From Psychroflexus sediminis (GTDB lineage Bacteria > Bacteroidota > Bacteroidia > Flavobacteriales > Flavobacteriaceae): DNA of 64,000 nucleotides. A model generated the notes under the pieces. The model saw only the letters and a list, made by a program, of their open reading frames with translations. It was not told where the DNA came from and did not search any database. Made by a program: the position numbers and the translations under genes. Shown in pieces: positions 2,769 to 8,187 of this stretch (the first letter of the stretch is position 1; each line of letters begins with the position of its first letter). The stretch lies in the NCBI RefSeq assembly GCF_900099815.1, contig NZ_FNCW01000001.1, forward strand, positions 129,933-193,932. The letters run 5' to 3'.

Positions 2769-3317
2769 ATGATTCGTAATTATTACAATGAACAATGGAA
2801 AGACGTCGTCTTTGACGACAAAATTGCCACCTTCGAGAAGTACAAAATCTCAAACTACGGCAGAATGCTTAACTGCAAAGGTGAAAATGAAGTTTTAGTC
2901 AAAGAATCTTTCATCAATGGCTACCAGACTCTTCCTTTGAAACAAGAACTGAACAAAAAATCAACCAGTCGATACGTTCATAAACTGGTTGCTGAGCATT
3001 TTCTGGAAAAAGGAGAGGGGATTTATGTGATCCACCTCAACTACGACAAGCTCGATAATAAGGTTGAAAATCTTAAATGGGCTACCAAAAAAGAAAAAGA
3101 GGAGCATCAGTTCAGCAATCCGGACTATATAAATCGTCCCAAAAAAAGAACCTATTCCAAACTTACGGAGTCCCAGGTCAGGCTGATTAAGCGCAAAATA
3201 AACGATCCCAATCGCCGTACACGGATGAAGATGATTGCCAAGCAATTTGGTATTTCAGAAATGCAGCTCTATCGTATCAAAAGTGGAGAGAACTGGGGTT
3301 CGGTGACGGATTATTAA
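2769..3317 (+). CDS. NUMOD4/HNH-like DNA-binding protein
   Basis: 182 residues. The N-terminus (EQWKDVVF to KYKISNYGRM, residues 8-35) is a NUMOD4 motif, a DNA-recognition module first described in homing endonucleases. Residues 70-110 resemble an HNH nuclease core (VHKLVAEHFL, then IHLNYDKLDNKVENLKWAT), but the usual N-H-x-D signature reads I-H-L-N, so the catalytic centre looks degenerate. The C-terminus (MIAKQFGISEMQLYRIKSGE) is a helix-turn-helix of the type found in this family. It stands alone, not inside an intron or a disrupted gene. It may be a DNA-binding regulator descended from a nuclease; nuclease activity is uncertain. Confidence 0.75.
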   Translation: MIRNYYNEQWKDVVFDDKIATFEKYKISNYGRMLNCKGENEVLVKESFINGYQTLPLKQELNKKSTSRYVHKLVAEHFLEKGEGIYVIHLNYDKLDNKVENLKWATKKEKEEHQFSNPDYINRPKKRTYSKLTESQVRLIKRKINDPNRRTRMKMIAKQFGISEMQLYRIKSGENWGSVTDY

Positions 3318-7188: not shown

Positions 7189-7211
7189 TCAGGTTAAAAA
7201 AATTAATAAAA

Positions 7212-7237
7212 AAAGCCCTACATTTCTGTAAGGCTTT
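7212..7237. terminator. Terminator hairpin
   Basis: AAAGCC (7212-7217) pairs with GGCTTT (7232-7237) and TACA (7219-7222) with TGTA (7227-7230), separated by one C/A mismatch. A-rich and T-rich flanks allow use on either strand: for the flavoprotein gene (plus) and the GIY-YIG unit (minus). Confidence 0.7.
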
Positions 7238-7247
7238 GATTTTACTG

Positions 7248-7304
7248 GTGGTCCCGCATGGGACCTCCCCGATAGCTATCGGGGTATGGGCCACCTGATT
7301 ATGA
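7248..7304 (-). repeat. Partial duplicate of the tRNA-Met 3' half, interrupted by a palindrome
   Basis: The 17-mer GGGCCACCTGATTATGA at 7288-7304 is identical to 7662-7678 in the tRNA gene (anticodon stem-loop and variable region), and GTGGTCCC at 7248-7255 equals the tRNA 3' end at 7637-7644. Between them the T-arm is replaced by the 18-bp perfect palindrome CCCCGATAG-CTATCGGGG (7267-7284). The copy cannot fold as a functional tRNA. The GIY-YIG stop codon (7299-7301) lies inside it. Confidence 0.8.
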
Positions 7305-7583
7305 ATATTTTTCAATTAATCTTTTTACTATATCTGGATTAGTTTTAAGATTATGATAGTATTTTTTGCTTTTCATTCTTTTGACATGAGCTTCTATTTT
7401 TCTAGCAATCGATATATTTTCAACAGTAATTGAGAAGAAGAGTTCCCAGTCGGACGCAAAAGCAGTTGGAGCATTTTTAAATTGATGATTATTGTGCCAT
7501 TCTATTCTTCTTTTTAAATCTGATGCTTCACCAATATAATATTTGTCTTTAGAAGGGGAATGTATGATGTAAACCCAATGCAT
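7299..7583 (-). CDS. GIY-YIG nuclease family protein (small, YhbQ/UvrC-like)
   Basis: 94 residues, essentially a single GIY-YIG domain: WVYIIHS (residues 3-9), YYIGEASDLKRRIEWHN (15-31, with the catalytic arginine), and IARKIEAHVKRMKSKKY, which carries the metal-binding glutamate. This is the stand-alone family very common in Bacteroidota. Its natural substrate is not known; relatives make nicks or double-strand breaks. The gene lies on the same strand as, and downstream of, the tRNA-Met gene and its terminator, and its last codons and TAA are formed by a duplicated piece of that tRNA. This suggests the gene arrived or was duplicated as a tRNA-associated unit. Confidence 0.85.
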   Translation of the reverse strand: MHWVYIIHSPSKDKYYIGEASDLKRRIEWHNNHQFKNAPTAFASDWELFFSITVENISIARKIEAHVKRMKSKKYYHNLKTNPDIVKRLIEKYS

Positions 7584-7597
7584 GTCGTTATATACTT

Positions 7598-7628
7598 AAA
7601 AACCACCTATACGAGATAAGTGGTTTTT
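7598..7628. terminator. Bidirectional terminator after tRNA-Met
   Basis: AAAAACCAC (7598-7606) and GTGGTTTTT (7620-7628) form a perfect 9-bp stem. It lies immediately 3' of the tRNA (minus strand) and 14 nt upstream of the GIY-YIG start codon. Confidence 0.75.
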
Positions 7629-7637
7629 CTTTATTAG

Positions 7638-7711
7638 TGGTCCCACTTGGACTCGAACCAAGGGCCACCTGATTATGAGTCAGGTGCTCTAACCAGCTGA
7701 GCTATGGGACC
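7638..7711 (-). tRNA. tRNA-Met (anticodon CAT)
   Basis: A 74-nt cloverleaf is clear on the minus strand: acceptor stem GGTCCCA/TGGGACC with discriminator A, D-arm AGCTCAGCTGGTTAGAGC, anticodon stem-loop CCTGA-CTCATAA-TCAGG and T-arm CTTGG-TTCGAGT-CCAAG. CCA is not encoded. The CAT anticodon fits elongator Met; a tRNA-Ile2 read by lysidine modification cannot be fully excluded by eye. The initiator is excluded because the first pair is G-C. Confidence 0.93.
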
Positions 7712-7776: not shown

Positions 7777-8187
7777 TTAAAATTGAGTTTGGTCTTCACA
7801 TAACTCGACCAGCACCCCATGATTGCTTTTGGGGTGAAGAAACACGATGGATTTGCCGTCGGCTCCGGCTTTGGGTTTTTCGCTAAGTAGCTGAAAGCCT
7901 TCCTTTTGCAGTCTTTGCATTTCAGCCTGAAGATCATCTACATAAAAAGCAATATGGTGGATGCCTTCTTTCTGTTTGCTCAAATATTTTCCCACAGGGC
8001 TGTCTTCACGCGTGGCGCCTAAGAGTTCGATTTTGCTTTCACCACAGTCAAAAAAAATGGTTTTCACCCCTTCGCGCTCCACGGTCTCTGTTTTGTAAGG
8101 CGCTACATTGAGCAAGGTCTCGTAGGTTTTAGTGGCCTCTTCAAGATTATTAACGGCAATACCGATATGTTCGATTTTTTTAATCAT
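7777..8187 (-). CDS. mce: Methylmalonyl-CoA epimerase (VOC family)
   Basis: 136 residues, the normal size. It interconverts the (S) and (R) forms of methylmalonyl-CoA, linking propionyl-CoA or branched-chain catabolism with succinyl-CoA. The paired beta-alpha-beta-beta-beta modules of the VOC fold are visible: IEHIGIAVNNLEEA with metal ligand H7, a glutamate in ESKIELLGA, IHHIAFYVDD and the C-terminal GVLVELCED. It is cytoplasmic, divergent from rbfA and has its own -7 box. No mutase gene is in the window. Confidence 0.9.
   Translation of the reverse strand: MIKKIEHIGIAVNNLEEATKTYETLLNVAPYKTETVEREGVKTIFFDCGESKIELLGATREDSPVGKYLSKQKEGIHHIAFYVDDLQAEMQRLQKEGFQLLSEKPKAGADGKSIVFLHPKSNHGVLVELCEDQTQF

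Follow-up and report, generated by a model that had tools for sequence, protein, structure and literature searches.

A small GIY-YIG nuclease gene between an intact tRNA-Met gene and its palindrome-broken copy in Psychroflexus sediminis: a probable member of a family of tRNA-directed mobile units in Bacteroidota

The window, the whole stretch of DNA analysed here, comprises 64,000 nucleotides of Psychroflexus sediminis. Its reverse strand carries an intact tRNA-Met(CAT) gene (7637 to 7711; ARAGORN, and 74.8 bits with the Rfam tRNA model) at the head of a compact unit. The unit continues on the same strand with a terminator-like hairpin, AAAAACCACTTATCTCGTATAGGTGGTTTTT (7598 to 7628), a GIY-YIG nuclease gene encoding the catalytic domain only (7299 to 7583; 94 amino acids, from the open reading frame list and PF01541), and a broken copy of tRNA nucleotides 34 to 50 (7288 to 7304), found by repeat search. 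The T-arm segment of the copy is replaced by an 18-bp perfect palindrome, CCCCGATAGCTATCGGGG (7267 to 7284, on neither strand in particular), followed within the copy by a second hairpin, GGTCCC-GCAT-GGGACC (7250 to 7265, likewise without strand; seen in sequence and fold), and by a copy of the tRNA 3' end, GGGACCAC (7248 to 7255, reverse strand). A terminator (7208 to 7237, reverse strand) lies further downstream, and a glyoxalase-family gene on the other side (7777 to 8187, reverse strand), recognized by its Pfam domains and by the neighbourhoods of relatives, serves as synteny anchor. The tRNA-Met gene is contiguous by both ARAGORN and Rfam and stands beside the nuclease gene, and an intron was rejected because nothing interrupts the tRNA and no splicing is involved. 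A NUMOD4/HNH homing-endonuclease-like gene of 182 amino acids lies 4 kb from the unit (2769 to 3317, forward strand).

The preliminary description of this DNA had reported a 17-nt tRNA repeat 374 nt away and an 18-bp palindrome, and both are exact. The repeat, TCATAATCAGGTGGCCC (tRNA nucleotides 34 to 50), has exactly two sites in the 64-kb window, 7662 to 7678 and 7288 to 7304, an offset of 374, with 0 expected from 100 shuffles; GTGGTCCC, from the tRNA 3' end, is found again at 7248 to 7255; and CCCCGATAGCTATCGGGG has a single site in the window even with 2 mismatches allowed, again with 0 expected. The nuclease reading frame ends in TCA-TAA, the TAA lying inside the copied anticodon-loop stretch, so the gene does take its stop codon from the tRNA copy, as had been proposed. 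Replacement of the T-arm by the palindrome also holds at this locus; as a general statement it fails, since the palindrome usually takes the place of 3 to 6 loop nucleotides. In the sister unit of another Psychroflexus genome, G013, the second hairpin is absent and the palindrome sits cleanly in the T-loop (GGCCCATG-palindrome-CGAGCCAAGTGGGACCAC), which suggests that the copy in P. sediminis has probably been rearranged once more.

The 94-residue product matches PF01541 (E=1.9e-11) and no further Pfam domain besides an overlapping T5orf172 match, and its AlphaFold model is a single confident domain (pLDDT 96.4); neither AlphaFold nor Pfam indicates a further domain that could bind a long DNA site. 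That a protein with nothing beyond the catalytic fold could cut a tRNA locus sequence-specifically is thus not obvious. Invariant columns among 43 proteins include Y5, Y16, G18, R26, H30 and E64, of which the catalytic ones are, we presume, those assigned from I-TevI. The nearest solved structures by Foldseek, all at E > 0.001, are UPF0213 BH0048, HIGLE and Slx1, the I-TevI catalytic domain ranking lower, and a sequence profile matched UPF0213 proteins (E 2.5e-5 and 4e-4). The stand-alone UPF0213 GIY-YIG proteins (1zg2, 1ywl) and Slx1 are thereby the closest solved sequences and folds; we know of no tRNA-linked mobile units formed by either. A PHROG homing-endonuclease family was matched over residues 1 to 35 (E 1e-4). 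No phage record matched the protein at E 1e-3, on which ground a phage origin was rejected; a defence role was also rejected, PADLOC giving only weak similarity, over short stretches, to the candidate PDC-S14 (E 0.0003 to 0.0009). Among 20 hand-chosen pairs of nuclease genes, two showing no differences and two of unequal length being skipped, dN/dS lay between 0.04 and 0.36 in the remaining 16, the pair from P. sediminis and G013 having 0.18, and these values indicate purifying selection on the protein. The copy begins inside the nuclease reading frame in 24 of 65 units with the tRNA upstream among the matches listed, and the C-terminus of the tRNA-Asn nuclease, KLAQLVRVPHVRD, common to four genomes (L138, L143, L147 and L163), is read from the tRNA and the palindrome.

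The anchor gene and tRNA-Met are neighbours in the genus, which allows the site to be compared between species. In G004, the nearest relative by anchor DNA (90.8%), tRNA-Met runs directly into ...GGGACCACCAGTAAAATCAAAGCC, the same sequence that is found 3' of the broken copy in P. sediminis, and the hairpin AAAAACCACTTATCTCGTATAGGTGGTTTTT is missing. Since the trailer of the G004 tRNA equals the sequence beyond the P. sediminis copy, a unit of 389 bp (7248 to 7636) has been inserted, pushing the original trailer with its terminator (7208 to 7237) downstream, and the copied 3' end at 7248 to 7255 marks the end of the unit by this comparison. The trailer that now follows the intact tRNA in P. 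sediminis differs from that of G004 and is common to G013, where AAAAACCACTTATCTCGTATAGGTGGTTTTT is near-identical in both trailers.

The census of this site covers 18 informative genomes, P. sediminis included, out of 27 of the genus; the others had a locus ending at most 9 bp from the tRNA (L017, L031), no tRNA in the stretch (L021, L028, L032, L033) or no usable locus (G006, G007, G024). A nuclease is present in 2 of the 18, P. sediminis (G000) and G013, the latter also with a second, truncated nuclease gene; a nuclease-free copy (score of at least 11) is present in another 2 (G011, G012); and in the remaining 14, which include G004, the score shows neither, though one of these genomes (G025) retains a remnant of the tRNA copy that is visible by eye and scores below 11. 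In G017 a GIY-YIG gene lies about 1 kb beyond the site on the other strand. The tRNA-Ala site is similarly variable: two nuclease units in P. sediminis, none in G013, G001 and G005, nuclease-free remnants in G008 and G016 and broken nuclease remnants in G011 and G006 (both kinds of remnant by eye), and in G004 a nuclease-free tandem array of 7.6 copies of a 91-bp unit (L316, 758 to 1450), each consisting of the tRNA-Ala 3' end with palindrome and terminator. The expectation that relatives would carry nuclease-bearing and empty alleles of the tRNA-Met locus was thus borne out, with the qualification that nuclease-free copies occur as well.

Lateral transfer is seen where the nuclease gene is more alike than its surroundings. 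Between P. sediminis and G013 the nuclease DNA is 95.8% identical, with 6 synonymous codon changes in 95, against 85.2% and 38 in 137 for the adjacent gene. At the tRNA-Asn genes of G008 and G001, the first nuclease gene is identical at 306 of 306 positions and the second at 97.3%, against 78.0% for the 994 bp before the tRNA and 78.3% for the anchor gene located elsewhere. Identity begins within the terminator and stops within the broken copy, and in both genomes the tRNA and its copy keep the host-specific T-arm. The ends were therefore supplied by the recipient or converted later; simple insertion would not give this result, which calls for gene conversion or for an older unit having been replaced. 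On these comparisons the nuclease units have spread laterally beyond their flanks, and together with the empty sites at tRNA-Met and tRNA-Ala they support the earlier proposal of a mobile unit that leaves an intact tRNA behind. A nuclease tree points the same way. Using the best 80 of 322 matches, amino-acid identity of the adjoining tRNA changes 8 times over 63 rows (mean 35.5 and minimum 30 in 200 shuffles) and the tRNA gene label 13 times (36.7 and 32), against 11 changes of host order over 52 rows (13.8 and 12), a control with little room because 14 of the 52 rows lie outside Flavobacteriales. There is some slight host-order signal, 11 being below all 200 shuffles; by these counts the tree follows tRNA identity far more than host order, single branches meaning little in a short alignment with many open forks. 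In a wider tree of 101 rows from the matches listed, polarity changed 15 times.

The arrangement recurs widely. Of nine GIY-YIG matches in the P. sediminis genome, two belong to long open reading frames of 603 and 457 codons and seven are stand-alone, four of these seven lying beside tRNAs (Met, Ala twice, Cys). Across the genus, 26 of 27 genomes have 3 to 25 matches each among those listed, long repair proteins included; to our knowledge, no role has been assigned to most of its short GIY-YIG genes. In loci taken from the best-scoring, not random, GIY-YIG matches in 60 relatives together with the P. sediminis loci, 50 of 154 distinct GIY-YIG reading frames among the matches listed lie within 800 bp of a tRNA, a zone that in P. 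sediminis covers at most about 2% of the genome (35 tRNA-model matches in 2.97 Mb). A wider scan with seven tRNA-linked proteins as queries, of which the best 80 of 322 matches were kept, gave 79 loci, all in Bacteroidota, where 84 of 97 GIY-YIG frames (fragments and a few already present in other loci included) lie within 800 bp of a tRNA, all 84 on its strand. Among the matches listed, 102 non-identical GIY-YIG genes have a same-strand tRNA within 300 bp, upstream in 72 and downstream in 30, and 90 of them have a far-side copy of their own tRNA at a score of at least 12; the controls gave 4 when a tRNA from a different family was used and 2 when the reverse strand was. The other 12 genes showed no copy at score 12. 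Among these rows the downstream tRNA of L098, L111 and L122 is an ARAGORN match on the broken copy itself, the copy in L176, L177 and L194 is or overlaps a second ARAGORN tRNA, five loci (L063, L112, L144, L177 and L238) contribute two rows each, and relatedness by descent makes independent events fewer than rows. The alignment of GIY-YIG loci with partial tRNA copies that had been suggested as a check thus gave a positive result, and the generality supposed for the phylum is supported by recurrence at many tRNA genes and by a tree that follows tRNA type.

The broken copies share a regular build. Among the matches listed, 69 consist of two collinear segments around one interruption, which contains a hairpin stem of at least 6 in 61 cases (1.2 expected from shuffles) and measures 18 nt in 34 copies and 16 nt in 11; the first matched segment may start anywhere from tRNA nucleotide 7 to 72. 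In 46 clean replacements among the matches listed, 3 to 6 native nucleotides are lost. With the tRNA upstream these belong mainly to the T-loop (21), the variable region (6), the anticodon loop (3) or a stem (2), and with the tRNA downstream mainly to the D-loop (7) or to stem positions (7, all around nucleotides 23 to 26 of tRNA-Arg(CCT)). Loop or variable region thus predominates in 37 of the 46 and stem in 9, and the unpaired fraction of the replaced nucleotides is 0.72 against 0.54 for random windows (maximum of 5000 resamplings 0.73), a loop preference that is real but modest. Copies of the commoner polarity often extend precisely to the tRNA 3' end and have a terminator-like hairpin behind them; units of the other polarity carry a copy of the tRNA 5' part before the nuclease gene and the intact tRNA after it, L191, L199 and L249 having a duplicated leader that L187 and L193 lack. 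The first proposal, in which the 3' half of the tRNA is regenerated, therefore applies to the commoner polarity and not to the second, which copies the 5' part.

The palindromes are related in sequence and are not confined to tRNA genes. In the 34 inserts of 18 nt a CCGA core is near-constant, the centre has mismatches like a hairpin loop, and the outer pairs co-vary (pair 1 is T-A in 22 and C-G in 12; another outer pair is C-G in 30, T-A in 3 and G-C in 1). The core CCGA...TCGG is common to Asn, Leu, Phe, Met and Arg-cct units of both polarities, and the palindrome varies with the nuclease subfamily, being TCCGCC..GGCGGA at initiator-type tRNA-Met and CCCGAC..GTCGGG at Arg-tct. Up to 300 bp from a nuclease gene such palindromes number 0.73 per kb (154 sites), and in the rest of these loci 0.050 per kb (23 sites), with overlapping loci left unmerged. 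Exact CCCGATAGCTATCGGG occurs in 18 of 60 relatives searched and at four sites in the P. sediminis genome: in the tRNA-Met unit, about 150 bp from another GIY-YIG gene, in the RNase P RNA gene, and at one place in neither setting. On these findings the idea that the palindrome is exclusive to the tRNA units was rejected. The RNase P RNA of P. sediminis (L041, 1375 to 1745; G000:C25 near 177065) carries the palindrome and two similar inverted repeats, and since these fall at insertions or loops of the Rfam alignment, palindromes appear to enter other structured-RNA genes as well.

Copies without a nuclease are frequent. In P. sediminis, 10 of 34 tRNA genes have a tRNA copy within 550 bp at a score of at least 13, against 0 of 34 in the control, and seven of the ten have no adjoining nuclease, two neighbouring Lys genes scoring one and the same copy. 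Nuclease-free copies lie beside tRNA-Lys (the two neighbouring genes), Pro, Val (5' type), Gln, Ser, Leu-CAA and Leu-TAG, the last scoring only 11, with TCCCGAAGCTTCGGGA; the loci are L297, L301, L305, L307, L311, L312 and L314, and several contain hairpins. Since a single site can be empty, nuclease-free or nuclease-bearing in different members of the genus, we read such copies as units that may have been stripped of their nuclease or served in trans. The preliminary description had named partial tRNAs without the nuclease in many genomes as an observation that would speak against it; nuclease-free copies are indeed common, so this is in part the case, and their frequency weakens a simple homing account. 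Away from tRNA genes, 60% of 122 GIY-YIG genes with no tRNA within 450 bp have a flanking direct repeat with a score of at least 18, against 1% in controls, in an automatically defined set in which genes truly away from tRNAs stand alongside internal genes of tRNA-linked tandem arrays.

Taken together, the arrangement of these sequences makes it probable that the tRNA-Met unit belongs to a large Bacteroidota family of free-standing, homing-type units directed to tRNA genes. Such a unit would comprise a small GIY-YIG gene beside an intact tRNA, closed by a partial tRNA copy in which a loop segment has given way to a palindrome. The nuclease would cut a unit-free tRNA gene in a loop-coding segment, mostly the T-loop and otherwise the D-loop, anticodon loop or variable region, and a copy that carries the unit would serve for recombinational repair of the break, with homology provided by the tRNA sequence flanking the cut. 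The locus would then hold an intact tRNA and the nuclease gene, with the half left over from the recipient's tRNA lying beside a palindrome at the former cut site, the palindrome being either an abolished cut site or a recognized end. The cut, its position, the repair route and the role of the palindrome are what we infer here. The features expected of a homing gene are present, namely a GIY-YIG domain with conserved residues, no intron or intein, gene-free alleles and horizontal spread; by analogy, the unit may be said to work like the free-standing GIY-YIG homing endonucleases, with a reservation for its single-domain protein. The intact tRNA left behind tells against homing, since an enzyme that cleaves intact tRNA genes would also attack the chromosome that encodes it.

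The closest parallel is SegB, an enzyme larger than the 94-residue nuclease that reportedly secures preferred inheritance of its own gene. In the parts of the published accounts available to us, SegB of phages T4 and T6 is a free-standing GIY-YIG homing endonuclease in a tRNA cluster (PMC13096335, PMC2988022), which breaks DNA within tRNA genes, the motif RAWTSGAAC, helpful and not required, being present at 23 of 83 sites (PMC13096335). The same portions describe enrichment of segB genes near tRNAs in phages and tandem amplification of tRNA-Tyr with segB, in which short regions of similarity at the 5' end of the tRNA and the 3' end of segB probably recombine, and likewise leave open how intact tRNA genes escape their own cutter (PMC13096335). 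By our own reading, the reverse complement of the motif, GTTCSAWTY, would correspond to the T-loop, and this match with the commonest place of the palindrome favours homing at tRNA loops. As far as these portions go, the likeness extends to a free-standing, tRNA-adjacent GIY-YIG gene, a T-loop-like motif and tandem amplification; unlike phage-borne SegB, the units of the P. sediminis type form a bacterial chromosomal family with two polarities and a palindrome-broken tRNA copy.

Other readings shift the weight between these elements. The palindrome itself might be the target of the nuclease, in the manner of REP elements, with the tRNA fragment and palindrome forming a mobile module, nuclease-free copies moved or amplified in trans, and tRNA genes favoured because their loops take up palindromes. 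This seems unlikely to us, even though a core is common to many tRNA units of both polarities with co-varying outer pairs, palindromes cluster near nuclease genes (0.73 against 0.050 per kb) and occur in RNase P RNA, nuclease-free fragments stand at seven P. sediminis tRNA genes and in the 7.6-copy array of 91-bp units in G004, direct repeats flank 60% of the 122 tRNA-less genes (1% in controls), and the structure-selective Slx1 is among the nearest folds. The palindrome sequence varies between nuclease subfamilies, no lone palindrome was observed moving, and the tree strongly follows tRNA identity, which a pure hairpin target does not predict. Better odds, still short of even, are given to a tentative reading of the family as a separate class of minimal mobile unit. 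A GIY-YIG gene for the catalytic domain only, with a tRNA fragment bearing a recognized palindrome, would enter structured-RNA genes in either polarity and spare them, nuclease-free derivatives would be amplified in trans, and the principle of a nuclease between hairpin repeats would underlie most stand-alone GIY-YIG genes of Bacteroidota.

Accounts that deny the nuclease a part in DNA mobility fare worse than the homing-type reading. An old tandem duplication, immobile now, with decayed tRNA duplicates and a captured nuclease gene retained because it serves the host (in DNA repair, phage defence or tRNA dosage), would fit purifying selection, the tandem arrays and the weak PADLOC similarity to PDC-S14; it is improbable given empty sites in near relatives, a nuclease far more alike than its flanks between species, presence in 2 of 18 genomes at the tRNA-Met site, and a palindrome in most copies where decay would leave random changes. 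The empty sites, the transfer and the regularity of the palindrome led to the rejection of simple duplication and decay. It is very improbable that the units are tiny satellites with the nuclease as cargo, which a tyrosine recombinase supplied in trans has put at tRNA 3' ends: commoner-polarity copies often end exactly at the tRNA 3' end, like att sites, but the distal copy is broken by a palindrome, its start varies from tRNA nucleotide 7 to 72, 5'-polarity units and D-loop replacements exist, the nuclease clade follows the tRNA as cargo would not be expected to, and the only reading frame of at least 60 amino acids confined to 7248 to 7636 is the nuclease. With no recombinase gene and two polarities, an integrase-type island was rejected. 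Least credible of all is action at the RNA level, on the tRNA, with transcripts of the broken copy as decoys or guides and a secondary DNA layout: leaders duplicated before the copy in L191, L199 and L249 suggest that it may be transcribed, but empty sites and transfer would be left unexplained, and the GIY-YIG enzymes known to us act on DNA.

Several known systems resemble the homing-type unit in part. Integrase-type islands have an intact tRNA at one end and a partial tRNA at the other; the tRNA-Met unit differs in its lack of an integrase, its 389 bp, the palindrome in the copy and the existence of a 5' polarity. In REP/RAYT systems a small nuclease-type gene lies between hairpin repeats, which RAYT transposases recognize, and gene-free copies occur; hairpin repeats beside the gene and gene-free copies elsewhere are found with the GIY-YIG units too, which differ in having a GIY-YIG and no Y1 transposase gene and a hairpin embedded in a tRNA copy. 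Group I introns with homing endonucleases use tRNA genes as targets and keep a working tRNA, whereas the tRNA-Met gene is contiguous and needs no splicing. A literature search with partial coverage yielded no report of palindrome-bearing tRNA copies associated with GIY-YIG genes, and within the literature searched this tRNA-sparing, palindrome-ended anatomy is apparently undescribed. The tRNA-linked units offer many short GIY-YIG genes a target, a unit boundary and a model of mobility, in which tRNA genes are entered and spared without an integrase; the model also accounts for recurrent palindrome-bearing tRNA fragments and tandem arrays of tRNA fragments, and many natural nucleases with differing tRNA preferences are at hand for studying site recognition by a domain of about 94 residues.

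Some loci show these elements in multiplied form. The extreme is L129, with eight nuclease reading frames in a row and broken copies like initiator-type tRNA-Met, in a stretch where no intact tRNA was called. In L128, the intact initiator-type tRNA-Met gene and its nuclease unit are preceded, on the reverse strand (330 to 1235), by a broken form of this tRNA that has inserts at two points and is repeated seven times in tandem, each repeat measuring about 127 bp. GIY-YIG genes within REP-like repeats were noted in L001, L003 and L005 of P. sediminis, in L053 to L055, in L057 and in others, the repeats being, for example, of the types GTCATCCCGACGATAGGAGGGATCT or TTCGAG..CTCGA, with direct repeats on both sides of the genes. 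In L139 (108 to 1662), a tmRNA gene is followed by two GIY-YIG genes with degenerate repeated segments between them.
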